Positions 12,511 to 35,024 of a stretch of 64,000 nucleotides of DNA are shown here, in pieces. How positions within the stretch are numbered: position 1 is the first letter of the stretch; every line of letters starts with the position of its first letter. This stretch comes from Candidatus Omnitrophota bacterium (GTDB taxonomy: Bacteria; Omnitrophota; Omnitrophia; Omnitrophales; Aquincolibacteriaceae), in the NCBI GenBank assembly GCA_022711115.1, contig JAKLFP010000004.1:1-64000 (forward strand), read 5' to 3'. The position numbers and the translations under genes are program-made. The notes beneath the pieces are model-generated. The model saw only the letters and a list, made by a program, of their open reading frames with translations, did not search any database and was not told the origin of the DNA.

Positions 12511-15500
12511 ATGACAGTTTCTAACATGAAATCTGCGATGCTGAAGGGGATTTCTTTATTTGTGGCCATAGCTTTTTTTGTGACCACAATTATTTGGGAT
12601 CCGTCCGGTGCCATAGCTCAAAGTTTTGAGTTTGCGGAGCAGTCGAAGATCCAGCGCGATCTACAGCAGTATTTATATTCGATACCTGCGCAATGGGGTG
12701 CTCTCTCAGGTCAATGGATGCCTCCCACAACTTCAACGGCTCGTACCTTTATTGTCCATATCCAGGATGCGCACGCGAATCCCGAAGCTCAGCGGAATAT
12801 TAAATCAATGTTGTCCTATCTGGACAAGAAATATCCGGGACTTGTCATCGGGATTGAAGGACTCAAGGGGTCTTTGCATCCCGAGTATCTGGATTTCTTT
12901 ACAGAATATCCTGATGCAAACCGCGCCGTGATCGAGGACCTCCATCAAAAAGGCGAACTGAACGGAGCTGAGCTTTTCCTCCTGGAAAAATATCAAAAAA
13001 GACAACAGACCACAGACTACGGGCTTAAGACTAAAGATGTTGAAGTCTTGGCCGCGGTCTCGAGTCTGCAATCTCCGGTCTCCGGTATTGAAGACCTGGG
13101 ACTTTATCGCGACAATCTGAAAACCTATCGAGAACTTTTATCCAAGCGCGATGAGGTCCAAACGCTGTTGAACCCAGGCCGCGCTCAGCTTGAAAAAGAG
13201 ATTTCTTTGGTGCTGAACGCCGATCTTCGTGATTTCTTAAAAGAGCGTAGCCGCCGTAAGGAAGGGCGTTTCGATGTTTCGACCCAGGGCGATCCGCAGT
13301 TGCAAGTTTATGTCCGATATCTCGCCCAATTGTCTTCAAAAGTGCTCGCGATCGATCTTACGGATTCCCTGGAGCAATTACGTTTTCCGAATCTTCTCCG
13401 CGTGCTTCTTGCGGAGCAGGCTCAAAGAGATTTTGATCCAGAAACGGCCAAGGCCCAGTGGATGAAGACGGTGCAAACCATCCGTTCTTTGGTGCGCGAT
13501 ACGAACGAAAAAAAATTTTCGGATGCCTTGAGCTCTTTTGCCCGCGAAAAAGGTTTTCTTCCGGAAGCCGAGAGCGCTCCTTCTCGTTATTCCATCGACC
13601 GGGCGTTTTATCCCCGAAAACTTCTTGAAGGTTTGTTCCGATTTGCTAAAAAGCACGGAGTGAAATTAGAAACACAGGCCGACTTTTTGAAAAGCTGGAA
13701 ATGCATTGTTTTTCAGGCAGAGATCGATGTCAACGAGCTTCTGCAGGAAATGGCAAGTTTGGAAAATGGAGTGATTCGAAAGCTGGCCCGATCTGAAAAG
13801 GAAATGGTGATTGTCCGGCATTGGGAGATGATGGATCTTCTTGAAAAGTTGCTCAGGCTTGAATTAACGCGCGAGGAATATGAAAAGGTCGTGGCGCAGC
13901 GTTCTCAAATGGAAATTTTTACGAAAGGTTCCGGGGGCCTAGCGGCTTTTCTGACAAAGGCATTTCATTTTTATAAAATTTCCATCGAGCGTGACCATGC
14001 CATGGTTGAAAATCTTTTATCATTCATGCCTGAGGGCAAGGATCAAAAACCACGGGTCGGTGTTTTATATACCGGAGGATTTCATAGCGGGGGGATCCAT
14101 GACCTGCTGCGGCAAAAGGGGATCGGTTATGCTGTCTTGACACCGCGGACTCATGCCGTAGATCATGGGGAACTTTATTCAGAAGTTATGTCCGGTGAAC
14201 ATGCGGACCTGTCGGCGTATTTCAAAGTGAAAAATCCTTTTGCGACCAAACAGGAGGCCCTGCTGTTCAAAGAACTTCTCGAGACTGCAGCGCCGGTGCT
14301 GTTTGAAACATATCGCCGTTCGACGGAAGAAATTGCAAAACATGTCAGCGACACGATGGCCAAGCATCCGGTACTTTCCCAAGCAATAACCGCGGAACTT
14401 TCAGGACCCTCTGCCGTCATTTTCCATTCAAAACCGGGCTATCGGGCAAACATCCCTGGAACCGCAGCCGTGATGCCGCCTGCCATGACGGGGGATGCTC
14501 TGTACCTGCGTCAGCTTGAAAGTCAGGAATCTGTTTGGGGCAGGTCTTTGTCAGCCGAGGGGTTCGAGGTAACCGTTGATTTTGGAGAAGCCAAGGCCCT
14601 GACGCTGAATGTGAAACAGACAGAAATCATATCGGCGACGAAATCTAGAACGGTTAAGTTAGACAAAAGCATTGAAGCAACCATGGGCTCTCTGGCGGAT
14701 TTTCAAACACAAAGCACCTCCGCTGAGTTATCTCCCGGGGTATTCGCCGACGCTGTTTCTGCTGTTTCGGGAACACCCAACACTCTTGCTCGTTCCGAAG
14801 TGCGAGGGGAAAGGAAAGTAATCGATGGAAAAATTTTGAGTCCAATCCCGATGCTTGGTACCATCCTTCCTTTGGACCCTAAAGGGCGTTCGAGTTTTCA
14901 TTGGAGCATTCCGCCTTCGGCAGTTCCGGAAGCCAGGGAAAAAGCGGAAGCTTTTGTGGAGGAATTGATAACAAGTTATCAGGGTGATTTCAAAGTCAGA
15001 AAGACAGAGCGAGTGTCCCAGAAAGGGCTTTTGGCCTGGATCTTTCCGGCGATCGAAACCAAGATCTTTTCTGAATTCCTCTCGAAAAAATTAAAAGTCC
15101 AAAAAAAGAAAGGGATTCCGGAAAAGACCGCCATTGTGGAGCATCCGATCAGCCAACTGTTGACCGCCATTGAGGAAAACGAAGAAGCGCTGATCTATCA
15201 AATCAAAGAGGCCTATGATGTTTCGGATTTGATTCCTCCGGAAGAAAGATGGAACAATTCCGCGAGGGCTTCGATTGCGGTTAGCGAATTGATCCAACTT
15301 ATGTCGGATCTGACCCAGATCATGTACTTTTCTGAAAACAAGTTAGACCCTCTTCCAAAAGTCAGAGAACTTATAGTGTCTCTGTCTCAGGAAAAAGAAA
15401 AATTCCATCAAGAGCAAATGGAAATGCTCGACGCGACCGTTCTCTATCTTGCCAAAAGAAAAGAAGAACTTGTCCGGCGGAGGATAGAACGAAAGATGCT

Positions 15501-18500
15501 TTTCGCTTTAGATCAATTCATTCAATCCATTTTAAGTGGGCCGGAATTACTTCGTGACTTCAAACCGAGAATTGAAGCAGCCATTGAGGAAACAGCGAAG
15601 GCTTTGGATGAGATCATGGCTCGGAAATTGGAAAAAATATCAATTGTGATTCAACAAAAGCAAACGGAATTTCCTGAAGGGCCGGATATGCCGGATGTCA
15701 GAAAGTTAAAAGAACAAAAAGCGCTTATTCAGGACCGCAGAGACGCTGTTCTGGCCAAAAAGGCAAGCCTTCTCGACCAGCTGAGAAGTTCGGCGGATTT
15801 TCAAACCTTTCAGAAGGGCGTTGAGACGGATCTGAAGGCGTTGGAAGGGGAGATAAAAGAAGCTCAAAATTATATTAAGGAACACGGATCTGCCGCAGAT
15901 CAAAGCTATCTGGAAGGCAATAAAGCGGGACTTCACCAAGGATATGCGGCCCTATTCCGGTCTTTTGAATTTGTCGCAAATGACTTGGAAGGAGATTTTG
16001 ATGCTCACTCCTTGACGGGGAACGGATTAGCGGAAGGGTGGGATCAAGGGAGGCTTGATGCGATCAGGGCAAGGTTGGGCAATGGAGAAGCTGTCACGAA
16101 ACAAGAATGGGTTGAGGCAATCAACCAGATTCTATCGATCAGAATGCGCCTTGAAGATTATCAGAGCATGCGGGACAATCCGGACATTCTCACAATGCTG
16201 GAAAGGCGCGATAGCGATGCCAAGAATTTATTGTTAAAAGCATCGGACCCTAATTTTTTTCTAAGTAAATTGCAACTGGAACGTCTCAACAGGAGATTGT
16301 TAGAGGCTATTTATCCGGAGCAACTCAACAAAGCCCCTCTTTTCAGGAGTCTTTTGGAAAAAGCAGAAGATCATCCGGAGAGGCCGCTTTTGTGGCTGTT
16401 TTATGATGATCAAATCTTTGGAATGCTCAAAACCCGTTTGCTTATGGGGCCGTACCGGGGTCATCAATCTTTCGATAACGCCACCGATTCAGGAATGACC
16501 GGGCAAGCTTTAGTCCATGAAGTGATGAAACAATTGCAGGAAACGCCCGAAGAAGAGGTGGTTCAGGATGGCTCCGAGGTTTCTTATATTTTAGTAGTAC
16601 CTCCGGGGACGACGGACGAAAAGGTGACACCTCAAATCGAACGCTATGGCCGCCAAATCAAAGGCATTGTCGGTATTGATGCGATGCCCTACACCCATTG
16701 GGTGGCTCTGATCCGGGGCCGTTCCCATAAGATTCCTGTTCTGCTGGTCTTGTCGAATAACGCGGGAGATCTTCTAAAGCAACAAGGGACAAGAGCCATT
16801 CTCATGCCTCAATCTGAAGAGAACGGTGCGTTGATCTTGAATCCCAACAATGATGATTTAGCCGAGGAAAAAAAGAAAGCTCTGGAGCTTCAAAGATTGA
16901 GGGCGGCTCAAATTCGTATGCGCCAATTAATTGCCCCGGTTCGTCTCGCAGTCAATATCGATGCCTCGAATGCCGGAGCCTTGACGCAAGCCAATAAACA
17001 AGGAGGATCTGTGGTGTCTGCCGGACTTGTCCGCACCGATGTGATCCAGTCTGCCGTTGCGGAGAAAATGAAGCATCTGGCCACAAACACGGCGACCTCT
17101 AAATTCGATCCTGAGGCATGGCTGGATGGTTTTGGCCGTTCCGAAGTAAGGATGTCCTTTTCTCTCATGGAACGTTTTTCCAAATGGGATCCGAAAGGCC
17201 GTGGAAATCCGGATGCGATTCATGCCATTTTGGCAGTCAGGTCTGGGACGTATGAAGAAGTATTGAAACAGCAGGCGTTCGTTGGTGAAGACGTTCCCCT
17301 CAGGACATTGGATCTTCAAAGAGACAGTAAGAACCGCTCTGTCCTCGAAATGCTGGAAAAAATAGCGGAGGAGCATCCTCTGTCGACGGTCCGGAAAGAT
17401 CCGTCAAAACCTATCAGCGGGTTTAATTTTTATGAAAATAGCTCGATAGGGGAACTGATGCTAGCGCTTGAGATGGCCGCGATGATCATCGCTTATCAAA
17501 AAATCTGTCAAACGGTACCGAAAGGCCAGCGAGGCCGGTTAGTGCCTCTTTTCCCGCTGATTGAAACTCATGCCCAGTTTGAATGGATCAAACAAAAGAT
17601 CTGGCCCTTGGCACAGCGTATTGCTCTTTGGGAAATCGCAAACCGGTCCGGGTTTGATGCCGTGAAAATCGAACGTGCCGAAAAAGATATCCAAAAGATC
17701 GGTTCCGAAACAAAATTTGGGATCATGGTCGAATACATGTCTTTGTTGACCGGCCCGGAATTGGAGCTTTTTCTCCGGGATCCGGATATTGTCCGTTTTA
17801 ATGTCGGGAACAATGATCTCGTCAAGAATTATTGGGAGAGAAAGGGATTAAGGGTCAATCGTGAGAATCCCGCGAGTGGTTTCCTTCTGGAAAGGCTTGC
17901 CCCGGATTTGATAACGGGTCTGGAAGAGCTTATTCGAAGGGCCCAAAAAGTGGGGAAAAAAGTTTGCTTTTGCGGCGGGATGGCGGAAAGCGGTAAATTT
18001 CTTCTTGCCGTGGAATGGTGGCGGCGCCAAATCGGTACTCCCGATATGGCCGCCAAGGATTCACCGATATCGGTCAGTGGTACCGGTGATGGTGTGTCTC
18101 AGGTAAATTATGCCCTTCAGGTTTTTCGCGGCATCCCTGGCGAAGAACTCGAAACAGTTTTCGGTTCCTCCCAACAGGGATCTGAACTGGATATGCGGGC
18201 CAAGGAACTCTCGAGCCGTTATTTATCCATCTCGGAAGCGATTTCGGTCCTGGTGGAAGAATGGCAGGAGAGGTATGAGCGGGCAGGTTTTCAATACGGC
18301 CTCTATCGTCTTAACATCCACCCTGAAAATGATCTGGGGGGCAGTAAGGAATTTGTCTCCTTAAAGAAAGTTGTCCGTGCGTGGCTTGCAAACAATGAAC
18401 CCGATCTTTTGAAGCTTCAATTGTCAGAAAAGGATACGGCCGAAAAAGAAGAGGTGCGCAGAATTTTAACGTATTTGGCCGATCACAAAATGATGATTCG

Positions 18501-21500
18501 GGCAAATATCGAGAGAATTTTGGAAGCCTTTGATTTTATCGAGTCTGTCCGTGAAGTCCACCAGGAACTCCAGACGCAAGATCCTGAAAAATTCAGCGGG
18601 AATCTTTATCCGGCGATCATGGGTGAATTCGTTAATGCGTGGGAAAAGACCTGGCGAAAGAAGTATCACCGCTCTGAATCCGAACGTCCCAAATGGCTTT
18701 CGGAAGGAAAAACCAACGGCGATAAATCTCCTGAGGGTGATAAAAAAGAAGAACAGCGGATCAATGATTTCTATAAACATTATCATACTCAGGCGACCAT
18801 TATTTTTAAAGCCAATCGTCGAACTTTGCATGAAATCGATGCCTCTTTGATTCGGCCGACTTATTCGCATGAGGAACCCATTGAAGAATTCAAGGGGTAT
18901 GACGGCTTGATGCATAAGATCAAAATCCAGACCCGCCATGGGTTGACTTTTAGTCTACAGAGGGGACGAAAGGGTGAAGAGGCGGGTCAATATGTCCATG
19001 TGGAGAATGCCTTGGAAAATTTCAGAGCGCGACCGGAGCTGATGCTCAAAGTTTTTGCGATTGCGGCTGAAAGAGGCGCCTACATCAGCCATCGCACTCA
19101 GTGGGCCATGGAAGAATTGCAGCGTGAATTGGAGTCGGATCTGGAATCTCAAACGACGCAAGGCAGTGCGAAGGGCCGCCAGGAAGGATTGAAATTGGCC
19201 TTTAACACTTTTTTTGGAAAACTGCTGCGTCTGAATGATCCCAATTCGAACATAGCGTATGTGCTCTGGCGCATGGAAGAATATTATTTCTTGGCGCAAC
19301 ACGTTCCCTATTTCAGGGAATTGAATCGTTATTCCTTGAAGGATGGCACCATCTTTCCGCTTCAAATGCAGACCTTGCAGACTATGGAAACATTGGAAGG
19401 CCTTTACAGACAACAAGATGATTTTGTGAATCATCGTGCCGCCCGTGTTTTCAGACAATTGCGGGCTGATCCTGGGTTGCTGCAGCTGGCCCGGTTGGCT
19501 GTTCTGCTGCATCCGATGATTGAAAATGAAACAGGGTCTTATTTCACGGAGGAGAATGTTAGCCGGATCACAAAGCAATTTTTAGAAGGTTTGGGAATCC
19601 ATGATATGACACTCGAAAGACGGCTTGTCTGGCTTATGTTTCATCAGCATGGATTTGCCCGTTACGGCCTTCTGTCACTTCAGGATATCGAAAAGAAAGT
19701 GAATGAAATCGTGAAAAGCGAAGGAGCGGAGCTTCATCTTTTTTCTGTCTTGTACGCGGTGACTTTTGCGAAACAAGCAACGGAAGCCAATCCGGAAAGC
19801 AGGATTATGCTCCCGCGTCAGGGAGCAGACAATCCCTTGGCCAGTCTCGACAAATTTTTTCTGGCAGGGCAAGCCCTGTTGGCGCATGCGGCTAAAGTGC
19901 CGGTCTCCACGGCTGCGCTTACGGCCCATGATGCAGTGACTGTCGCAAATTACGAGGTGACCAAGGGGCGGAAAGCAGAAGTTTTTTCACAGTTGCAATC
20001 TTTGGTAATCTCCCAAGACTGGAAAAGCATTCTTGATGATTATTTAGCTAACACGCTGGGAGGAAAATATCCCGCACTGCGTCAGCTTTTAATCCAAACC
20101 CTCACTTCGCCGGATCTTTTTCAGAAACTTTTTGAGCGATTCAGCGCTAGGACATCCACCTATTACATGCAGACCATGGATACTGGTTCCTTATTGAAAC
20201 AGTTGCTTTTTTACCGCCATCTTTTGTATCTCAGGGAAAACAAGGATCATTATGCCCGGGCAACGGTTTTTTTCCCATTGCCTCACCAGTACAACGAAGC
20301 CTATGAAGTGATCATCGGCGCCGGGTTTGACGAAGTCGGCGAAGCAGCCCTGGATACCAGGGTGCTTTATGAAAACGGATTTTTTGTAGAGAATGCCGCC
20401 ATCCGGAATCCCCCTGATGAGCCGGTGTTGATCCGCTTCGTGGGTCATTTCCCGCACGGAGAGAACATGGCCCTGATCCAGAAAAAGATAGTGTCAGATC
20501 TCTCAGCTGTTTTTGCTCCCATTACTAGCGGCAAAAAATTTTGGCGCATAAGTTTGCGGGTTCCGACAGATACCGAAATGCGTTTCGAACGCGCGGATGA
20601 AGTGTATGAAGACCAAGCTATTTATGTTCCTAAAACGGATGCATGGGTCGGTTCCCCAACGCGTGCCATTTTTGACGCGAAGCCAGTCGACTATTATGGA
20701 AGAAGAGTGAGTGTTCTTCATGTCTCGATAGGTTCTTCAAACTGGCGTGGGCAGCTTTTAGTGCTTCTGACGACCCTTTCATGGCTCCAAGAACTTGATA
20801 TTAACGGGCTTCAATTCGAACAGATCAAAGGGTTCCCGCCGGAGACGCAGGTTTTTGTGACTAAAAAAGGGGAGCCCTTGGCTCCAGACCAGCAGGCATT
20901 GATCGCGAGACGTGTCGCGGAAATTTTAGACATGAAACCCATTACCATACAAAGTAAAGAAGCTTTCCCTGCGAAACCGGTTGAAAGAGCGGAAACCGTG
21001 ACCCAGACCTTGAAAATAAATCCGCTGGCGAGGCTCCATTTCCGGCCGGCCGCACAGATTATCAAACTTCTTAATGACTATCGTGTTCATCGCGCGACGC
21101 TTCGTTTTGGAGATCATCCGGACATTGATCTGAAGAGTCTTAATAAAGTGGTTGCGGCCGGGATCAAGGGAGATCCGCAGCAGGAGGTTCAGGTCACGAT
21201 TGTGCTGGAAGGAAAAAACAGGCGTAAATTGGAAGAGGTGATGGAGAAGATTGCGGAAAATGTGATTGCCATCCACGGGGAGGAAGAAGAACAGGTAAAA
21301 CTTTTTCAGCCTGTTCAGCGCTCGGAGCTAAGATCTCAGCCGTTTGGTTTCATAGGGCAGCTTGCAGGACAAGTTTTAAAAAAACAATTCAGATTTCCGG
21401 ATCTAGGATTTCATAAAGCACGTTCTGAAGTCCGCGAAGAGGTAACGCGGCAAGCTAAGATCACGAATAAGAAAGGAATCCATGAGCGGCCGGCAGGTCA

Positions 21501-24500
21501 AATAGTGAAAGTAGGTGAAAATTATCCGCGGCTTGAGATTTTTTTTGAAAATGAGGGCATCAAGGAATGGGGCAAGGGTGTCATGGCTCTTTTGATGCTC
21601 GCGGCAAAAAAAGGCTCTCAGGTGACCATCACGGCTTCCGGGTCTCGCCATGATATCGAAGCCTATTTCCAGGAATTAGCGGGGCTCGTTGATGAAAGCG
21701 AACCGGGACGGGAGAAGATTTTTCTTTTTCCAAAACGGGCCGAGTTGAGACTACCGTCTTCAGGCTTTATGGCGGGACTGATGGGGACGGTTTCGGAGAC
21801 AGCGACCTTCCAACGATCCGAAATTCGCGGACAATTTGTGAAAGAGTATCAGATAGGTAATGAACTCGGGATTCATGCGCGCCCTGCAGCGCAGATTGCA
21901 AAATTAATTCGAGAACCCAAATATGCCTCTCTCCAAATCGAAATCGAGGATTTAGACAGTGGCATGGAGCCCGTCATTTCTTCGTCGGCCACTCTCCAAA
22001 TGGACATTCAAATGCTGGCGGCAAAAAAAGGGCATAAAATTAAATTTACTGTTGAAGGATCCAAGGCGCTTGCTGATGCGTTTTTCTACAAGCTAAAAAG
22101 TCTTAAGGATGATGATAGTCATGAGGATATTTTTAAAGAAATTTCACAGGGACCGGCACTTTCTTCCGGGCGCTCGGAGATGCGAGAGGAGGGGGCGGCT
22201 CCGGCATCGTTCCTACAGAGACCGATCAAGAAGATTCTTCTGGCAGATGATAGCCTTTTTGTCCGGGTTGTTTTAGGAAAGATTCTCGATGGAACGGGTG
22301 CTAAATTTGAGTTACTTGCTGTCCAGGATGGGCAGGAGGCATTGGATCAAATCGAGAGATTCAATCCGGATGCCATTTTGACCGATGTGCATATGCCTAA
22401 ATTAAGCGGCCCCGAGTGGGTCATGCAGGCTGTTCAAAAACCTCAATTCAGTAACATTCCGGTTGTTTTTATGAGCGATCTTACAGAAATGCCGGATGCG
22501 CTTCATATCGCAATGAATGTACTGGCGGAACAGCATCCGGTTCATTTTTTGCATAAAAAGGACGCAGGCAATCGGACGATATTGCTCGATTTGTTCCAGA
22601 ATCCTAACGCCCAAAATTTTAACCGCTGGCCCGGCCGTTCGGAAATGCGGGGTTTTGAAAAATATCCGGTTTTTATGGGTGGTTTTTTGGATCCGGATTA
22701 TCATGCGAAAACCAAGGGAAATGTCTTGTTGTTTTTGAAGAGCAGTTTGACACGGACTGGATTAACGGTTGTTGCGGATTCGGTCGATGAAAAGTTGCCT
22801 CCGGCTGTTGCTATTTTGAGGCTCAGCAGTCCTTCTACGAAAAATAATATCCGCAAGCTCAAGGCATTGAATCCGAATGTCAAAATCATCCTGATAACCG
22901 GCGGCACAGCTTTTTTTACGGAAGAACAATTGCATACCATGGGTGCGGATAAGCTTCTTTATATGCCTTTCGCATCAAATACGGAACTGGCGGATGTGGT
23001 TCATGAATATATCCGATCAGCACAAGCGATCCCGGAAGCACAGACGCCGGTATCGGTTCGTCAGATGGATCCTGCTAGCATTTTTCAACCCATAACCGAA
23101 AAAGATGAGGTTTTGATCGAGCAGCTTTTCGGCAAACTGGAGGCATGGCAATTTGACGATCTTCGGCGCCGGCTTTTAAGGGATACTCAGACCGGAAATA
23201 TTTATCTGGTCAAATATGAATCCGAATTAAATCCCTTGGAAGCAAAGCGTTTTATGTGGAGCACCAAGGACGATTTGGAACGTCAGCTTCTTATGACCGA
23301 ACTTTTCCGGCGTCTGGATGGCAATGCGGTCGATACCCTTGTTCCTGATGATGCTGAACGCTGGCGGATCGCTCAGTATCTGGACTTGTCGCCTCAACAG
23401 GCATCGACGCTTCATCTCGTGAGTTTGGCTTCAAATTACAAACTGAGCGACAAGGCGGTGAAGCAAAATGATTTTAACAGGGCCATGACGCGTCATCTGG
23501 TTCTGGCGGTGTTGACACGATGGTACGATTACCATACGGGCAATCACGGGCCTTTAGCGGATGCGCGCATCCCGATGACTTTTGATCATGAACAGGCCTT
23601 TCATCCTTCGCTGGCCGGCATCGATGATTTTACGCGCAGATTCATTCCGAATTATTTCGGGAATATCTCTTTAGAGCAAATGCTTTCCATGCTGGATCTC
23701 AACGAGTTGACGCGTTCTGTGGAGGCGGTTCGATCTTTTGACCTCCAGACTTTCAAAACTGATTTTGAAAGAAAATATGCCGGAGGGTTTTCTCGAGAAC
23801 GATTTTACGAAAGTTATTTTAAGAGTCTTGTTCATTGGCAACACAGCTTCGATACGGACATCAAAAGATTCTTTGAGATATTGTTTTCAAGCCAGCTCAA
23901 AAGTTTCATGCCTTCGCAAATCACAAGGCCGCTTCCCACTCTCGAACAAATCCAGGTTGCCTTGGTGCCGGCGCCGCGTTCGGAACTCCGGAGTTTAAAA
24001 CCGAAACAGGAACCGAAACAAAAACCGAAACTGATCGTTCTTGTCGGGACCGTTTCTTTAATCGGGGCAGGGATCCTTTTAAGCCTGGCATGGGACCGGC
24101 TTTTTAATCCTCAATATCTTCGAGTTCGGGAATTCCAGCGGCAAGCACTTCAAAATCAACCTCCCATACTGACTGAAATGGCGGAGGGGATAGGATTCAG
24201 GCACCAGACATTACGAAATTGGGAGGGAATGGACCAGGTCGAAGTCTTTTACGGCGGCCATGCGCATCCGGCGCTTAGTCAGGGTATCGTAGATGTTTCT
24301 AAAAAGGTGCTGCATGAAAAAGGGCAGTGGGTGCTGGCACTTGAAGACGCACAAGCCTTGCTTGATTCCGGGATGCCTATTGTGGCCGCGGATAACATAG
24401 CGTTACTTGCGCTTCGAGAGGAAAGCCAAGCTCCGCTCATTGATCCTTGGAAAGGATTGGATCATTTAAGTGAGCCGGTCATACGCGGGGTTGCCGCCAA

Positions 24501-27500
24501 ACTTGGCAAAAACTATGAAGAAACGCGTGACGCGGTTTTTTTTGAGAAATGGCTGGAGCAGGTTCGAATCGCTTTGCTTACTAATCCGAATGCCGTAGTG
24601 CATGAAATCTTTCTTGAAGCGATTAACGATCTTGCTTTTCTGGGTGAACATGACCCGGAGCAAACCAAGTTGGTTTTCAAACGAATCATCAAAGAGCTGG
24701 AGGATCCTGCTCACGCGCAATCTTTCCTTGAACTTGTCAACAAGATTGCGCCGACATCCAATCAAGTGAGAATGGAACTCGGTGGCCAGCGATTAAAAGC
24801 GCAGTTACAACAAATGCCGGAGAAGAAACTTTTGATTCTCATGGGGCCGTCCTATGGGCCGATCTTTGGGTTGCCGTCGCTTGAAAACCCGTCGTATCAA
24901 CCGTTCAGCCCACAGGAACTTTCGAACGGCTTCTTGCTTCTGAATAAAATCGGTCTTCCGGAATATAAATCTCCGCCGCGCGCCGAGGTCAGGGCCATGG
25001 GAGCAGTGGAAGTGACCATGACGGATCGCGGCATTTCAGTCAAATTGGGTGAAGCGAAGGGCCAGTCATGGGAAGGCAATCAGTTTTTTATGTTAGCGCA
25101 GTTCCTTAAAAAACAAGGGATCAAACCGGCGGATTTCAGGTCTGAAAAGACAGAAGGGCAAAGGGGGACCGTGCCGGTGCTGACAATCGGAAAGACAAAG
25201 ATCCCGCAACCGGATGCCAAAAGCGAAACAACGCGAGCCGCGATTGAGCTTGCCATTCTGGATCTCATGACGCAACCGGACGAGAAAAAATGGGACGTCA
25301 TTCCTTTGGTGTCAAGTCCCGAAGAAGCCTTTGCCCAATCCTTGAACAGCCTTCAGTTGCCGCCCTATGAATCATGGGTTATCGAATTGCAGCAAGCAGT
25401 GGAAGCGGGACTGCAGATTCATACGGTTCAGACCGTGGGCGGAAGGGAGGAAACAAAATACACCTATGGGCCGCTGGGCATGTATCTCCGTTCCCGCTTA
25501 AAGGATCCCCCTGCCAAGTTCCTGGCCGTGGTCCAGCAAATGACCAGTAATTCTCAAAGCCAGCCGTTTAAACTGCTTTTCCAACTTGCCCAAAGCCATT
25601 TTTTGGCAGATAGGGATGGAAAACTGCCTCTACTGATTCCGATGGGTCGTAAAGAGTCGTCTCAGGAAGTTTTGGGCATGGAAAATCCGGCCAGACAAAA
25701 AGTCTGGATGGACGGGCGGGAAGTGGCCCAATTCCTTAAACCGATGCTGCAAGAAAATCAACCGGTTCGAGTTTACATTGCCAGAGAAGTCACGCCCAAA
25801 GGGGTTTCGGAAGATCATGACGGAAAAATATGGAAACAAGAAGGAAGAATTTTTTATCAAAACGGTGTTTTTAAAGGGGAGCTGCAGCCCACGGACCTCG
25901 TGCTTATGGATGCGGAGGGGATGCTGCATTTTATCCCGTTCCCATCCCCCCATTTAGTAACCCATCAAGGAAACCCGGCCGTAACGTCGACGGCTACCGA
26001 AGCGTTCATCAGCCATATTCAATTTGCTCAAGCGACTTATCCGCGTGTTTTTCTTCAGGCCCGTTCCGAGGTCAGAAATAGAATCCTATCGCCGTTCTAC
26101 AGGAAAATGCTGCAAGGAGGTAAAGGTGCTTCAGAGTCCTTGAGTTATATGATGGAATTTCAAAATCGCGCAGATACCATTCTTAACGCGCTTGACCAGC
26201 CAGTGCTGCCGCATTATCTGCAGGGTCTTCCGGACATCGATGATATCGTAGATCGCGCGAAAAACGTTTTGGAAAAGATTACCGGGGAAATGCAGGCGAA
26301 TGTCAGTTTGGGTTCTCAGATGCAGAGTAATAACATGCTCACATTGTATAAGCTCGGCCAGGATTTTCTTGAAAGCCTGGGCGACCTGCGACGCATCGCG
26401 CAAGGCACCTCTTTTGATAATGAATTCGGGATCAGCGAATTGATCACTTTATTTTCAAAGGCAGCCGGACTGGATAACGATGCGAACCAACCCGCGGTCA
26501 TCGGGGATGAAAATTATCGCGTCTTGAAAAATATTTTTCAAAAAACGGCACAAGCCCGTGCTGAGGTGAGGGGTGCCACAAAACTGGATGGAATCAAACT
26601 GACGGGCCAACTCACTTCCAATGTGTTTCAGGAGATAGCTTATCGGTTACGAGCCAATCCGGAACCGTTCCTGGCGTTGGATCTTCCGCTTATCAAGTCG
26701 ACGAATAAAAAACCGTCTTCGCAGTCGACACAAAAAAGAATAGAAGTTTATTTCCCGGGAATTCCTGCCACGCCGATGCAGATGGTTGAGATCAAGAGCG
26801 TTTCTAAAGTCCGTTCCGAGGTGAGGGAAGATGTTCGGGAATATCTTGAGAGGCAATTTCAAAGAATACAAAGGACTTCTTACTTCGCGCCGAATGCGGA
26901 GGCCTTCTATTCCAAAGAGAAAGTGTCCGGTCGTGAAGTGCACACGCTAAGCGTCCAGCACTTGTCCCAACGAGCCCTAGAGATCCTGTACAGGGATGTT
27001 TTGCCGGAGGTCTTGAAGAATCCCGAAGAGTGGTTGTTTGTCGTTGAATCCGAATCACAGGAAGAACGAGAGCTTTTCCGAAAGGCAACGGGTATCCCGT
27101 ATGAGATTCCGGAAGAATCATTCGCGCTTGAGATCGCGAAGACTTTTAAAATACCGGTCGCTACTCCAAGCCCTATCCTGCCGCTGTTGAGCCTTGAAGT
27201 CACACAGGAGTTCGAGCGCAAAGGAATGAATGCGGGAAAACCGTTCCAATTTGCGGCTCTTGATTTGAGGTATGAGGCTTTGGCAAGAGGGAAGGAGTTC
27301 TCCTGGAGCGCTGTAAAATCAGGCCTTATCACGGAATATGCGAGGCAGTGGAAAGTCGATCCCAAGGTTTTGGACAAAGCCTACGAAGAGTTACGCCAAA
27401 TCGCTTGGAAGATTCCGTCCGAGTTGGCGAATATCTATAAGGAAATGAGCCGGCTTCTCACCGAGACCGCCAATGGGTTAATGAGATCAAAGATGCGATC

Positions 27501-30500
27501 CGTTTTGGAGCAGCACGATCAAAAAACAAAAGTATTTATTCTGACCGGAAGTCTTCACGCCAAAGAGGCGACCGACGAAGTAAAAGCTTATATGGCTGAA
27601 CATCCTCGTTCCGAGGTGAGGGATGCTTCTGCTGCAGCCCTCACCGTGCCGGTTCCGCCAAAACAATCTGTGATCGTTGAAGGAGATGAAGCGACGAAAT
27701 TGCTGAATGCCCTTGTGATGATTGCTGATGATCAGACGATCTTTGATATCGGTGTTTTGCCGACTACGGTTTGGGAATACGATCCGCCCAATGCGAGCTT
27801 TGAATTCAGCGATAGATCCCGTGATGCAGCTTCGGCCTATATCACGATTCGCAAAACGGATTATCTCATCGTTGATTCAAAGGGAAGAGTTATCTATGTT
27901 CCGGTGATTGATCCTGATCTTTCGAAGCATCCGGCCCTTGAATATAAAAAACAATTTGTTGTCGCTACGGCCGATGCTTTGCTCGGTAAACCTTCTAGCG
28001 ACTTTACCACTAACTTGCCTTCACCCGGCCAAACGCAAGAAGGCAACTGGACCGTTCTCTCCCTTCAAGAGCTGATTGATCAATATGGAGAAAAAATCCA
28101 GCGACAAGAAAAAACATCGCATGCGACAGAATCAGATCCTGCGGTCATGGCAGCACTTCAGAATTTGTCTGAGGAAATGGGCGGCCGGACGTTAGGTGGT
28201 TTGTCCATAATGGGAGCAGAAGAAATTCAGGGTCTGACGATGTTTGCCAGCAACTGGGCGCAAAAAAGACAATTGATATTAGATAAGCTTGAGACTTTTC
28301 CTGATCTAGAATTACGTAAAATCTTTGACTCTTTAGATTTGTCAGTATCCAAGGAGATGTCCGCTCTTCTCGCAAAGTTCCGCAACTATGATGATTTGGG
28401 AAAAGAAATTCGCAGTTCCGTGGGAAAAGGAAATTCTGTTGATTTTTATAGAAGGAAGCAGGCGGAATTTCGGGATCTAAAAAATCGGAAGCAAGCATTT
28501 GCCATGTCGATCGATGACCGATTAATTGATTGGAACGGTAAACTTGCCGAACTTGAGGAAGGGACTGGGATCCGCTCGGAGGTAAGGGAGGGTGCCATAG
28601 GGGAACCATTTGAGTCGGATCACGGAATGCCGTTGCAATCCTTGAAAGCGGTTTTTGATCAGCTGACCTTGTTCGATTCACTCGATAAAAATTTGGCCCA
28701 AAAATTAATTGAAAAAGGTTCCCAAAGCCGTTTCACATTTTATTTGAATAACGGATCCCGGAAAGAAGGTTTGGCCCAGGCCTCAAATCCGACAAGTGTG
28801 ACCATAACCAACGGCGACGTGATTCCGTGGGATGATATAGAAGCCGCGGAGGCTTTCTTGACGGTTCAGGATTCAAAAGAGTTATGGCGCGGCACTTTTC
28901 TGCTCTCAAACGAAAGCTTTTTGGCAAGGGACAAATTCGCCGTCAGCGGTCTTGGGCGTCCGGAGAAAACGGTGCATATCGGTTTGGCGGGCATGTTTAA
29001 TTTTGATATGTTGGCGGCGAGGAAAACCGGATACGCGATTTTGCTGGATAAGAATGAAAGACAGATCGAAGCGTTCCGTCTTATGAGGAATGTGATCGGC
29101 GCGGCGATAAATTCCACCGAGTTCGTACGAAGTTTCCTTGACGCTTTACAAAAACGTTACGACTATTTTTTCCCGAATCACGAAGAATTTGAGAAATTTT
29201 CCGAATCTTTTAAATTTGGCCTTACGCAATCGGATAGCTGGCTGGGAAATGCTGAAGATTTCGACTGGATCAGGAATATGTTTCGTGAGGGCAGAATCCT
29301 TTCTTATCGGGCCGATGTCGCCAATGCCAATCTGTTTCGCGCAATAGGCGATTGGATGGGCAGACAGCAGCTTGAGCTTGATTCGGTTTATCTGAGCAAT
29401 GTCCCAGAATGGCTTTTGGAAAATCGAGGCGGCGGGATCGTCAGAAAGAATGTAGCGGGTTTTTATCAAGGATTATTGCCGCTTCTTCTTCCACAAACAT
29501 TGATCATAGAAGCCTATGAGAATCCATTTCCCTCCGACGAATTGTTGCCTCGCCGAAGATTCAATCAAAAGGAGTGGACTCGTGATTTTGAGGGGCGCGT
29601 TACCAGGAAGCTTCAAGCACCGATCGAATCATTAGCCGCTGCGTTTCCGATTGCAACCCCCGGATTTCGTTCGGAGGTGAGGGGGGATGGGCGGGAAAGT
29701 TCAGAAACTTATATTGCGAATCGGAACTTGTCACGCTTAGTCAGTCGTCTTGAGAGCTGGTTAGAGGATTTTGTGGAAGGACAGGCAGTCGATTTAGACC
29801 GTATGGCATTATTTCGGGCGGAAATAGATCGTCTGGAGAAAGAAATGGGATACCCTCCTCAAAACAGCAGACGGGCGAATTTGGGTCGGGCCATTATTAA
29901 TTTTCTGGAAGCGTGTCATTTGCCGTCGCCGAATTTAAAACTGGCCTCCCAATATAGGGATCAAGTCGGTCGGATCGAAAGCAGTTTAAATCAGGCGCAG
30001 CACGGTCCTTGGAAAAAATCCGCACAAGAGGTTCTGAATAATATGAATCTCTATCTAAACCGTGCGGAGGTGAGGACGAAGCCTGAAAGAAATTATGAAT
30101 CCTTTGCCTTAGCGCTTTTGAACGATCACGACATCGGCACTCAACCCTTTACCATGCGGCAGCTTCAGGCGAAAGGCCTGAGGTTTCCCTATGACTACAT
30201 CTACAATGCCATCATCTTATACGGCTATCTCGAGAAAGGACCTGTGGCCGGCGGGGCGCAGACTTATCGCCTTACGGCCAAGGGGCGGGAAGCGGCAAAA
30301 CAAGAGCAAACCCAACTGAAACCCTGGGAAACACCTTATTTATTTAGCATTCAGCCTCGATGGATACCAGCACGGGGTAAAGATTATGAGCCTTCCGTGA
30401 CGGAACGATTGCAAAAAGCCTGGCCTTCATTGAAACAATTACCGCCGGCATTGCGCACGGATAAGTACATCGGGCAGCTCATCGGCGTTCGCGCCAATTA

Positions 30501-33500
30501 TCCGGTCAAATTAAAACTCCAGGAAATGGGACTGGAATTTCCGGAGGCCGGCCGTTCCGAAGTGCGTGCGGGAAAGGGAAGGGATCCCGGTCGTAAAATC
30601 AGTTTAAACGTAAAGGCGCCTCAATGGGGCGATATCGGATTTTCAGATCTCGCATCATTGGAAAGATTTCTCGATGCGCATGCCGCCCAATTTACATCGG
30701 ATGAGCGGATTGTCACGATTGAATTGTCGGGATTGAAAGAGGGAAAAAAATCAACATTGAGACAGATCGCCGCCTCATTTGAAAAACCCAAAACCCGTGC
30801 CAGGGCGGGGCAGATCGCAGAAAAACTTCCCGAAAAGATCCTTTATCTGAAAGCGCGTGATGCTCATCTTGCTGGGGTTCAGAAGATAACGCCGAGTTTG
30901 GAAGTGATCCTTCAGGAGATTCGATTCGCGCAAGGACGTCCGGGGGTGGCAACTCGAATTGAGACTCGGCTGAAAAATATATTTCCCAAGGACAAATCTG
31001 CGAATTTCACTATCACCACAATGTATGAATTGCTCCAACAGGATGTTGAAATACTGCAGGAACATCGCAGGATGGGAGACGAGGTCATCGGTGCTTTGAA
31101 TGAAGCGTTGAATTTCTTTGATTTGCGTTTGACCGGAACAAAGCCGTTTGACGGGGAAGGATATTTGAAGGCCAGGGAGGAGCATGTTGCCGGGACAAAA
31201 AAGATTGTGCCGGATCTGAATATGATTTTGCTTGAGATCCGGTATGGACAAAATCAGCCTGTCAGAGCGGCCCGCCTCGAGACCATTCTCAAAAATTATG
31301 ATATTACCGCGCTGGAGCAACTGCTTGAAAAAAGTGAATCCACATTATTCAAATACCCGCATCTGGGCACGGCGGTCATAGACGCCCTGAAAGAAGCACT
31401 TGCGTTTTACGGACTTCAGTTGGCCCGTTCTGAAATAAGAGCCGACCGAAAGCCTACGCCGGATGGGGTGAGGATGCACGGGCAAATGGTGTTAGAACCA
31501 ACTGTTGTTGATCTGTCAAAGCTTACCAAGTGGCCTCGTGGTACTTTATTGAATCGAGTGATTGTTGCTGCGGATAATTCAAAAACCCTAGCGGCAAAAG
31601 CGACGCTCCCTATCAGCGGTGATATTTTGAATCAGTTACAGGCTTTTTTACATCATTCAGGGAATGACTTGATTGTTAATTCCGGAGATTCCACAGAGCA
31701 ACTAGCGATTTCTCAACAACCTCTATTGGATTTACTATCTGGGGTGGCAAACCGTTATCGTCTTATTGCGCAAGGAGGGCAAATACAATTCACTTATCAC
31801 TCGGATGGTTTTGTGAAAGAGCGAAAGCAAATTCCGGATTGGGATATTGTCAAACGTGAACGCTATGCGGAATTGATGCTGCGCTCATTCTATGCTTCAC
31901 TGGAACGCGTGGCAAAGGATAAAACAGGTCCATTAGCATCTTTACTCCGTGAAGTAAATCCGGAGGAAGTTCGAACATGGGGTACTCAGCGAATGCTGGA
32001 TTTCAAAAAAATAAAAGATAAAGGCACATGGGGGAAACTAGCATCAGGGGAAACGAATTACGTCTTCGAGCTGTTGTCGCCTCGGTTGCAAAGGGAATTG
32101 GGGCGTCTTTATCTTTACGATGCAGGCGGGATATTAACGCTTGAATTTGACGATTGTAAAGTGAACAACGTCTCACAGTTTTCGGAAGAAATCGCAGATG
32201 AAATCAGAACGAAATTCTCTTCCTCTGACGATGCTTATCTCTTTGCTGGTCCTACCTTTGTAGATGTCAGCGTGACAACAAAGGCTCATGCTGTAGAAGA
32301 AAACCTCGAATCATTGCTGGCGGATAAGGAGGACTACACTTTGGTGGTCTTGATGGGGGATGGCTCCAATGATATTCCGACGTTTCAGCTAGCCGATAGA
32401 ATTAGGGCAAAGCATCCAAAAGCTTATGTTTTGATCTTTTTTCTGAATCGAATCTACGATCCATCATTGCCTGACGGGACGTTTGTGACCGAAGAAGCGC
32501 AACTCGCTGGTGCCTTGCCGGTGCTTAGGTATCTGAACGGGATCAGTGGGAGACGGATAGAAGATATCGGTGAAATGTCAGGCGTTTCAAAATGGCATGC
32601 CACAGCCCCTTCTGAAATAAGAGCCGACCGAAAGCCTACGCCGGAAAGTGTTCGGTCGGAACTTCGAGATCTGAATTTTGGAACTGTTGCGACGCCCGCG
32701 GCGCTGTCCTTGCTTAAGGCGTTCAAATTCAATGTGCCCGCCGATTTTGTTCGGGAAGAAAAGAAACCTTGGATCATTGCCGCGGCACGTGCGCTCAGCG
32801 GAATTTTTTCGGCCAAGGCGGTGGCGGCGGAAGCCGAAGGCGGTGTGACGGATGAGAATATAATCAAGGCGAGGCTCTGGATCGCGTTGCAGCTTAAAGA
32901 AATAATCGAACAAAATGCCAAAGATCTTGGCATTTCAGACGAGCGATTAAAAGGCATTCTGGCGAATATTGATCGTATGGCGCTGGATAAAACGGCGGAT
33001 CTGTCTTCGATGGCACAAGGTCCTGTGGTCCACGCGAATCTTCCTGAGATGACGGATGCGCAGTGGCAGGAATTCCTGAAGCAGCTTCCTGTGGTGCTCG
33101 GAGTGGTCGTATCGTTGCATGCGAATTTATTCTTCAATATGCCGGGTGATACGGTTTTGATAAAGGAACGGGAGGCAGAACTTCTCAAAAAAGCTGGAGA
33201 GAGCGGCTTGGGTTTCGCGCCGGACCAGGTGCGGATCTTTGCGATAACCGGGAAAAACTTTTTTGAGTCACTCAAATTGTCCAAGGGAGATGTGAATGCG
33301 GTTTTTGCTTTCGAAGAATCGCAATTGCCCGGGCATCAGAAGAACATCAAGACACGCTGGCTTGCGGATGAAAATGCCGCCGGTCATATGCCGACTTTGG
33401 CCGCGGATATCGCAACTATTCTTTACGCAGCTCTGGATCAGAAGATCGTCGATCCTTACGGGAAGCCTCGCCGTCCTTCCGAGTATAACAGCGGCGTTCT

Positions 33501-33965: not shown

Positions 33966-35024
33966 ATGGCGCAGTCAAAGTTCAGTAAGCGGATCGAAAA
34001 CCTGCCCGGGGAGATATGGACCAAAATCGCCCGGATCGATGAGTTGAAAGGGCAATGGACCGGAGGGGTTCATCTAAGCCCTCAGATCCTGGGCCGTTTG
34101 AAACAATCCGTTCTGGTGACTTCGACCGGTGCGTCAACCCGTATCGAAGGAGCGAGGCTTTTCGATGAGGACGTGGAGAAGCTTATGCGCGGCATTTCGG
34201 TGCAGAGGTTTACGGACCGCGATAAACAGGAAGTGAAAGGGTATTATGAACTCCTTCTGAATGTCTTTGAATCTTGGCGTCACATCCGCTTTTCCGAGAG
34301 TAGCATCAAGCACTTTCATCAGGAGCTCCTGAAATACGCGGAAAAGGACAAGCAGCACAAAGGAGAGTACAAGAGGACCGAGAACAAGGTTCACATGGTG
34401 GACTCGTCCGGAAAATCGACGGACATTCTTTTTGATACGACTCCTGCTTATCTGACACCGAAAGAAATGCAGGAGCTTGTCGAATGGACGCAGGTAGCGC
34501 TCGGGGACCGGAAATTCCATCCGCTGCTTGTGATCGGAAATTTCATCGTCGAATTCCTCAGGATTCACCCTTTTCAGGACGGTAATGGGAGAATCTCACG
34601 AGTGCTGACTAATCTGCTTTTACTGCAGCAGGGCTATCTTTATGCGCCTTATATTTCTCATGAGAAGCTGATCGAAGACAACAAGGCGGATTATTATATT
34701 GCGCTCCGTAAAAGTCAGAAGACATTCGGTAAAACCAAGGAAGACATCATTCCGTGGCTGGAATTCTTTTTTTCCATGGCCAGTGAGCAGGCTAAGCGGG
34801 CCGTGGATCTTCTGTCTAAAGAATCCATCGAAAAATTGTTTTCCCCGAATCAGATCGCAGTGATGAACTATATCCAGACGGTGGAGGAGACTTCTCCTGG
34901 TGAGATCGCGAAGAAACTTAAAATAGCGCGGCCGACTGTAAATCAGGTCCTGTCGCGCCTCATTCAGTTCAAGAAAATCGAGCGCTTTGGGCTCGGGCGC
35001 AGTACACGATATAGGAAGCTTTAA
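33966..35024 (+). CDS. Fic family protein with winged-helix tail
   Basis: The active-site motif is 'IHPFQDGNGRISR' (about residues 197-209), the full HPFx(D/E)GNGRxxR of Fic AMP-transferases, with the catalytic His. The N-terminal part has 'STRIEGA', the (S/T)xxxE(G/N) inhibitory helix that blocks ATP binding in class II Fic proteins. The C-terminal 60 residues ('SPGEIAKKLKIARPTVNQVLSRL') form a winged helix, common in Fic proteins of this size (352 residues). Fic enzymes usually transfer AMP from ATP to a hydroxyl of a target protein; the target here cannot be predicted. The gene lies directly beside tRNA-Glu in an island with recombination scars, so it is probably horizontally acquired. A small gene follows after 32 bases. 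Confidence 0.9.
   Translation: MAQSKFSKRIENLPGEIWTKIARIDELKGQWTGGVHLSPQILGRLKQSVLVTSTGASTRIEGARLFDEDVEKLMRGISVQRFTDRDKQEVKGYYELLLNVFESWRHIRFSESSIKHFHQELLKYAEKDKQHKGEYKRTENKVHMVDSSGKSTDILFDTTPAYLTPKEMQELVEWTQVALGDRKFHPLLVIGNFIVEFLRIHPFQDGNGRISRVLTNLLLLQQGYLYAPYISHEKLIEDNKADYYIALRKSQKTFGKTKEDIIPWLEFFFSMASEQAKRAVDLLSKESIEKLFSPNQIAVMNYIQTVEETSPGEIAKKLKIARPTVNQVLSRLIQFKKIERFGLGRSTRYRKL

Follow-up and report, generated by a model that had tools for sequence, protein, structure and literature searches.

Seam peptides in the giant genes of an Omnitrophota bacterium as candidate processing sites of polyproteins

The window analysed here, a stretch of 64,000 nucleotides, is the start (bases 1–64000) of contig JAKLFP010000004.1, C20 in our numbering, of a metagenomic Candidatus Omnitrophota assembly (GCA_022711115.1; 2.5 Mb in 25 contigs). 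Three neighbouring giant genes in it, all on the forward strand, share a short peptide, R[SA]ExR, which we call a seam and which may mark the places where their products are cut. The first-pass annotation had named these three genes, correctly, and put the number of seams at about 26; 25 copies were counted (20 + 3 + 2).

The seam peptide at the locus and across the genome

The first gene (2–1390) is cut by the contig start and encodes the C-terminal part of a LamG protein (Pfam Laminin_G_3 at residues 8–115, E 1.7e-16), with seams RSEVR at 473–487 and RSELR at 614–628 against a shuffled-residue mean of 0.02. The second, an open reading frame (ORF) of 3478 aa (1721–12157), encodes a signal peptide, a Tiki/ChaN-like N-terminal domain (N-domain) and an SNF2-type helicase module (SNF2-related domain at 7847–8440, PF00176, E 5.9e-19). 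Its three seams (shuffled mean 0.21) are RSEAR at 3347–3361 and RAEMR at 3404–3418, a double seam with its members 19 residues apart, and RSEMR at 11564–11578. For both genes the earlier counts of two and three were the same as ours. The third, of 7041 aa (12433–33558; TTG start as listed, with the first ATG codons 26–36 residues in), has 20 seams against a shuffled mean of 0.30, where 21 had been claimed for a 7015-residue protein.

The seams of the 7041-aa giant begin with RSEVR at 14791–14805, past the shared N-domain (12730–14250; invariant D and H in DAH, E 28 residues past the H, R, and GGFH), and RSEVR recurs at 17137–17151, ahead of the phosphoenolpyruvate (PEP)-binding domain of a PEP-utilising enzyme (17668–17994, PF02896, E 4.3e-07). 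RSELR (21319–21333) and RSEVR (21421–21435) then precede the best of three HPr stretches (21445–21690, PF00381, E 9.3e-34), which is followed by RAELR (21736–21750), RSEIR (21814–21828) and RSEMR (22171–22185). A response-regulator receiver domain (22234–22506, PF00072, E 3.8e-12) has a seam on each side, at 16 and 44 residues, and its module ends in RSEMR at 22636–22650. Further along lie RSELR (23977–23991), RAEVR (24979–24993), RSEVR (26062–26076), RAEVR (26557–26571) and three more copies of RSEVR (26812–26826, 27607–27621 and 28573–28587), the last of them ahead of a DUF7790 domain (28909–29418, PF25046, E 1.2e-17). The series closes with RSEVR (29668–29682), RAEVR (30061–30075), RSEVR (30553–30567), RSEIR (31426–31440) and RSELR (32653–32667), so that the span first proposed, 14791–32667, gives the exact outer edges of the first and last copies. 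The remaining genes of the window, described at first pass as lacking the motif, have a single copy, RAEIR in a 1641-aa ORF, which is near background. A Fic/DOC-family protein is encoded directly after the 7041-aa gene (33966–35024).

Over the whole assembly CGNTCNGARNTNMG, used as a DNA pattern, matches 179 times and its reversed form 14 times; most of the places listed belong to a few clusters. From these motif clusters we read nine giant ORFs of >3000 codons (3.5 to 11.1 thousand residues), several of which run off the stretch or the contig, as contig ends cut off several giants in these metagenomic assemblies. The nine hold 200 copies of R[SA]ExR in 73,271 residues, 3 to 48 copies each, where composition predicts 3.4 (expected motif numbers are computed with residues treated as independent). 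The distance from seam to seam varies widely, between 13 and 5151 residues. Ordinary-size ORFs of the same regions, which as neighbourhoods of giant genes supply the background for this genome, have ten copies in 58,852 residues, six of which belong to the LamG protein and to a long protein truncated at a contig end. The motif is thus near background in ordinary genes, which is what the first-pass annotation had asked to be checked, and an unbiased search returned R-S-E-x-R as the strongest four-residue pattern in the giants. Seams within giants keep the strand and frame of the gene. The final units of the giants at the ends of C20 (L048) and C21 (L051) are 93% identical over 135 residues, and the assembly probably breaks inside giants at such recent duplications.

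Fifty-eight genomes of relatives were also searched. Related giants carry the motif too, in the bacterium's own family and also in families f3, f6 and f8. Scored against the reversed-pattern control, R[SA]ExR is enriched in the majority of this family's genomes and in a number of further genomes of the order; the same genome scan found no enrichment in other classes.

The seam peptide is under purifying selection. When single positions are freed and compared with the 194 intact copies, non-canonical residues number 13 at position 1 (16.4 expected), 4 at position 2 (6.4), 17 at position 3 (13.6) and 12 at position 5 (16.4). All but six copies have V, L, M, I or A at the fourth position, and lysine replaces neither arginine in any of the patterns counted. 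Silent sites vary: glutamate is GAA or GAG (115/85), and the last arginine uses all six codons at near-background rates. One-mismatch copies at chance level, together with varying silent sites, mean that it is the peptide that selection keeps. Flanking DNA has little conservation beyond the codons (sites of ~0.01–0.15 bits, one at 0.46), and the traits of a mobile or palindromic DNA element, namely conservation beyond the peptide, an excess of decayed copies and insertion into any gene, were not found.

A common ancestry of the seams at DNA level, suggested at first pass beside a conserved peptide, is nonetheless partly real. The first arginine codon, said to be always CGN, is so in 25/25 window copies and in 194/200 genome-wide (background 71%), and the seam serine is TCN in 164/171 (background 67%). 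The last arginine is often AGR, as had been noticed (72/200, or 36%), which barely differs from the background of 29%. A 41-nt direct repeat joins 31423–31463, which includes the RSEIR seam, to 32605–32645, 98% identical, where the seam has decayed to PSEIR. Seam-flanked spacers also recur in frame (L050, L041 and the 3347–3418 group of the window): RSEAR-SSLRTES..-RAExR (for example RSEAR-SSLRTES-RAEVR) with seams 17 residues apart, RSESR-ASASNPGSADPGRSGIYQGGMQEG..-RSELR with seams 33 apart, and RSEVR-ITGSKPGFESRG..VLDS-RSEVR with seams 27 apart. They resemble repeats inserted into a seam that had been duplicated. Since the 41-nt repeat bears a seam and the seam-flanked spacers recur, seams must sometimes have been copied as DNA.

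Units between the seams

Seams had been described as lying mostly where one domain ends and the next begins, and the border statistics bear this out. None of 28 Pfam domains is cut by a seam (0/28) against 10.1 expected, and 0/5000 circular shifts gave a count as low. Domain edges lie a median of 41.5 residues away from a motif, against 104 (P 0.0024). HPr begins 3 residues past RSEVR and stops 16 short of the next seam, and a phosphoglucomutase (PGM) unit of four domains is framed by seams at 14 and 24 residues. S, P, A, G and T abound in the seam flanks, whose disorder-proneness exceeds that of all 5000 random site samples. A structure predicted without an alignment for the HPr-seam-receiver segment was uninformative (predicted local distance difference test [pLDDT] score 46).

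A single ORF encodes, by Pfam, several complete and normally separate proteins as seam-bounded units, and short conserved sites lie between these units with none inside, in both of the seam dialects compared (see below). The Pfam content of the giants, enzymes and domains of housekeeping type, includes three HPr stretches, the response-regulator receiver, phosphofructokinase (PFK), phosphoglucomutase, glucosamine-6-phosphate isomerase, ribose-5-phosphate isomerase A (RpiA), malic enzyme, inositol monophosphatase (IMPase), sugar-nucleotide enzymes, MraZ, the RNA polymerase alpha C-terminal domain and dihydrouridine synthase; a cytidylate-kinase match is weak (45 bits). By eye the catalytic motifs of the PGM, PFK, RpiA and IMPase units look intact. 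Units of the RNA polymerase alpha C-terminal domain, MraZ, tRNA/rRNA-modification and phosphotransferase-system (PTS) types make an odd cargo behind a signal peptide (giants on C12, C20 and C22; L040–L044, L052–L055). The idea that essential genes occur exclusively in giants was rejected: RpiA (C20:83168–83698, L058) lies solely inside a giant ORF here, yet it is absent in 57 relatives and is therefore not an essential isomerase there. It was probably acquired from outside and fused into the giant.

Comparisons between giants point to the same boundaries. Where two different giants hold homologous units, the match extends from one seam to the next (56% identity, residues 4–317 in both). A seam closes the receiver unit in a relative (L149) as well, where the unit belongs to a different giant: it is RSELR there and RSEMR in the window. 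In the orthologous comparison 12 seams are kept and 19 are not, most of the misses coming from one badly aligned region of one giant, and the ends of similarity segments fall at seams in 7/46 cases against 3.4 expected, a weak signal. Some units have a signal peptide of their own right after the seam, as in RSEMR-AKTISKIALLGFLVLGLQAQSALAQ, and several of the clear ones end in ALAQ or WAQ. Within 35 residues past seams, this genome has 10 hydrophobic or signal-like starts where 4.2 are expected, and the pooled set has 21 where 10.5 are expected.

A shared N-terminal domain and several seam dialects

All giants with their start in hand begin with a signal peptide followed by one homologous domain. 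Its profile has 15 matches in this genome and matches 54/58 genomes, with up to 56 matches in one. It heads ORFs of up to 35,113 residues (C37 of genome G041, domain at 183552–185117, L060–L063), and other frames that it heads reach 26,995 (G025:C5) and 23,964 (G005:C88) residues, parts of the G041 and G025 stretches being N. In a scan of 84,980 species the domain is almost confined to Omnitrophota; the 80 best matches include one record from Elusimicrobia. In that record (L175) the domain is carried by an ORF at least 2092 residues long, and the system may reach beyond Omnitrophota or may have been transferred.

Counted from residue 100 of the 7041-aa protein, the residues D13, H15, Q21, E43, R421, G449, G450, H452 and P472 are invariant in 70 N-domain sequences. 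The putative active site of the domain keeps the acid-x-His / Glu / His arrangement of the Tiki superfamily, with the family His-Glu spacing: 28 residues separate the two, the same number that Bcr135 (His85/Glu113) and RRSP (His3902/Glu3930) have. RRSP requires an acid two residues ahead of the first His as well as a second His (PMC6254334), whose counterparts in the N-domain would be D13 and H452. An AlphaFold2 model of the domain (pLDDT 91) has a long helical stretch separating the active-site segments. PF04187 (ChaN, Tiki superfamily) was matched weakly by 10/70 N-domains, at best with E 0.0012. We regard the domain as a probable member of the Tiki superfamily with its putative active-site residues kept, a superfamily that includes a proven site-specific endopeptidase (PMC6254334).

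Giants of families f4, f5 and f7 have the same N-domain and, by de novo peptide search, another seam, [AG]xSLG. Observed and expected counts are 61 and 2.1 in G039, 54 and 1.4 in G030, 22 and 0.8 in G036, and 9 and 0.3 in G038, stretches of relatives with masked bases having been left out. Family f2 uses [AS]GFG (36 against 1.2 expected in G027), and AGFG is present in all seven giants. In each genome with a clear signal one seam type dominates and other motifs are at or near chance, R[SA]ExR in G039, G030 and G027 not exceeding it; copies in G005 and G029 are too few for a firm call. The de novo search detected no seam peptide in G048 and G053, which lie outside the order and have the N-domain. 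SLG seams, too, avoid Pfam domains (0/10 against 2.9 expected, P 0.024), and one malic enzyme, for instance, lies 38 and 41 residues from its seams. The serine of SLG is mostly TCG in G030 and mostly AGT in G039; it is therefore the peptide, not one DNA sequence, that the two families have in common. The codons of the peptide (in G030 mostly TCG-CTG-GGG/GGC, in G039 AGT-TTG/TTA-GGN) also rule out that SLG is RSExR DNA read off the opposite strand, an idea that similar-looking translations of the reverse complement had raised. A scan of the 58 genomes with an SLG DNA pattern gave no discrimination, the information in the pattern being too low. In G030 (L087–L089) some peptides of the linkers between SLG seams, for example SPSFAKATEG and PSTSLRAG, resemble translated intergenic repeats.

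On the N-domain tree the seam type changes about six times, at least four of them on well-supported branches. Copies from this genome and from SLG genomes are interleaved, and the giants within one genome agree in seam type. Seam type hence follows the genome rather than the descent of the giant, and the simplest explanation is one reader per cell that serves all giants; we infer that this genome-wide reader acts in trans. No N-domain column tracks seam type significantly, in a comparison that has only four independent pairs and no power.

Cutting, docking and known systems

The explanation we favour, and hold to be somewhat probable, is that seams are processing sites of multi-enzyme polyproteins, cut by a candidate trans-acting endopeptidase. 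Each giant would be made as one chain, with the signal peptide and the Tiki/ChaN-like N-domain followed by enzymes and other domains, and with seams placed in the flexible linkers between units. A site-specific endopeptidase serving all giants of the cell would read the seam, cut it and free the units. Cutting is the best reading of the strictness of the seam, its position, the linkers, the complete enzymes, the internal signal peptides and the concerted replacement, and to judge from their sequences the giants would work like a polyprotein. The only candidate cutter found, a putative one, is the N-domain itself. A broader proposal, to which we give a shade less than an even chance, is that whole Omnitrophota families make a share of their enzymes as polyproteins, punctuated throughout the genome by one common peptide that a single processing enzyme per cell reads. 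This 'cut-here' code with dialects would have been exchanged as a whole on at least two occasions (RSExR, xSLG, GFG), along with its reader.

Several observations weigh against cutting. The border statistics rest on few domains (28 for R[SA]ExR and 10 for SLG), a recognisable domain is missing from many units, the 3478-aa protein has a seam-free stretch of 2720 aa, and in the SLG dialect the median domain-to-seam distance is no different from chance. Export of the whole chain by its N-terminal signal peptide is hard to square with cytosolic enzymes, unless cutting precedes export, and the bias of the first two seam codons (CGY-TCS) is unexplained by peptide selection alone. The Tiki link of the N-domain rests on weak Pfam matches and residue spacing, and Foldseek found no significant match to it in the PDB (none with E <0.001), Bcr135 (3b55) coming at E 4.4. 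Two Arg-specific protease families do not fit as cutter: clostripain (Peptidase_C11) is absent from 58/58 genomes and the caspase family (C14) is present in only 3/58. A search for C25 proteases was uninformative, as none of its controls gave a signal. Cutting, a trans reader and separately working units are things we infer.

The first-pass annotation had offered a protease site, a linker or the footprint of a DNA element. The protease site fits best. A rival reading is a docking or recognition peptide that is never cut, bound by a chaperone, scaffold or export factor along the intact giant in an assembly line or surface coat. We think it unlikely, with points in its favour: a strict sequence and its lineage-wide replacement demand a reader, which need not be a protease, and the literature, in the parts accessible to us, takes the giants of Omnitrophota to be surface or adhesion proteins that stay intact (PMC10066038). 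It sits less well with units that are mostly unrelated enzymes of no obvious common pathway, with signal-peptide-like starts after seams, and with spacings that range from 13 to 5151 residues. We think it distinctly improbable that seams are the footprint of DNA shuffling, a 15-bp recombination or insertion scar at the joins of gene pieces whose peptide has little role, even with the biased first two codons, the 41-nt duplicate, the recurring seam-flanked repeats and the seam-bounded homologous units of different giants in its favour. A pure footprint is disfavoured because decayed copies are not in excess, the flanking DNA is hardly conserved beyond the codons, the giants of sister families use another peptide, and the serine codons of SLG differ between f5 and f7; copies in giants also follow the strand and frame of the gene, and SLG as opposite-strand seam DNA failed its test.

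Self-processing, in which the N-domain of each giant cuts its seams in cis, would draw on the presence of that domain on every giant with its start in hand, on its invariant D, H, E, R and GGxH in 70 sequences, and on the endopeptidase among Tiki-superfamily members (PMC6254334). N-domain paralogues that predate the family split share the seam type of their genome, however, so that cutting in cis needs all copies to have switched specificity together; no N-domain column follows seam type significantly (again with four independent pairs only), and G048 and G053 carry the domain with no seam peptide detected. We consider it very unlikely. That seams are a by-product of chance or composition has next to no probability: single copies do arise by chance in ordinary ORFs, a point of no weight, and the explanation is refuted by shuffles (20 against 0.30), as well as disfavoured by the 200 copies against 3.4, the 179 matches against 14 reversed, and the enrichment through most of the family.

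Giant ORFs of Omnitrophota have been reported before. The portions of the two papers available to us (Seymour et al. 2023, PMC10066038; PMC12057145) describe ORFs >20 kb with LamG domains and membrane helices, common in Omnitrophota and other PVC relatives, whose function is called poorly understood and whose 'post-transcriptional integrity' is unclear. There they are read as adhesins or predation weapons, with adhesive domains named, and the giant of V. archaeovorus has 42 predicted transmembrane helices (PMC10066038). Our giants share the phylum, the size and the LamG domains with these; seams, dialects, enzyme strings and a shared N-domain are not mentioned in those portions. No paper joining RSEVR with Omnitrophota or with polyproteins was found in the accessible literature, and seam-punctuated giant polyproteins with likely cut sites are not known to have been described in bacteria.

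Seams give giant genes a grammar that predicts where products start and end. They turn unannotatable ORFs of 20–100 kb into lists of ordinary proteins, and whether such a gene makes one protein or many becomes directly testable. Tryptic proteomics should be blind to any cleavage of RSEVR, since trypsin itself acts behind that arginine, and the SLG and GFG dialects should be visible to it. If cutting is true, this would be polyprotein processing on a larger scale than is known from bacteria, and it would bring along orthogonal cut sites ready for use; if the seams are uncut, they are still a strictly selected and unexplained peptide that has been replaced across the giants of whole families.

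Viral polyproteins contain several working proteins per ORF with strict short sites between them. The giants resemble them in all of this and differ in being chromosomal, in their size (tens of kilobases each) and number (at least nine per genome), in the unrelated enzymes they join, and in the lineage-wide replacement of the site. In the light-harvesting polyproteins of Euglena and dinoflagellates a conserved short linker is cut between repeats of one protein; the conserved short linker is alike, whereas the units here are different enzymes and the host is a bacterium. Rickettsia palindromic elements are short repeats of DNA that have entered protein-coding genes in frame. The linkers of the giants can likewise hold in-frame repeats, but the seam is 15 bp long, conserved as a peptide, concentrated in giants and outside domains. 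MARTX toxins are processed by a built-in cysteine protease domain, and neither RTX repeats nor a MARTX-type cysteine protease domain had a Pfam match in the giants scanned. Like MARTX, with its effector unit RRSP (PMC6254334), the giants combine several effector-like units in a giant secreted protein; unlike MARTX, they have a strict repeated pentapeptide, and a Tiki-like domain stands at their N-terminus.

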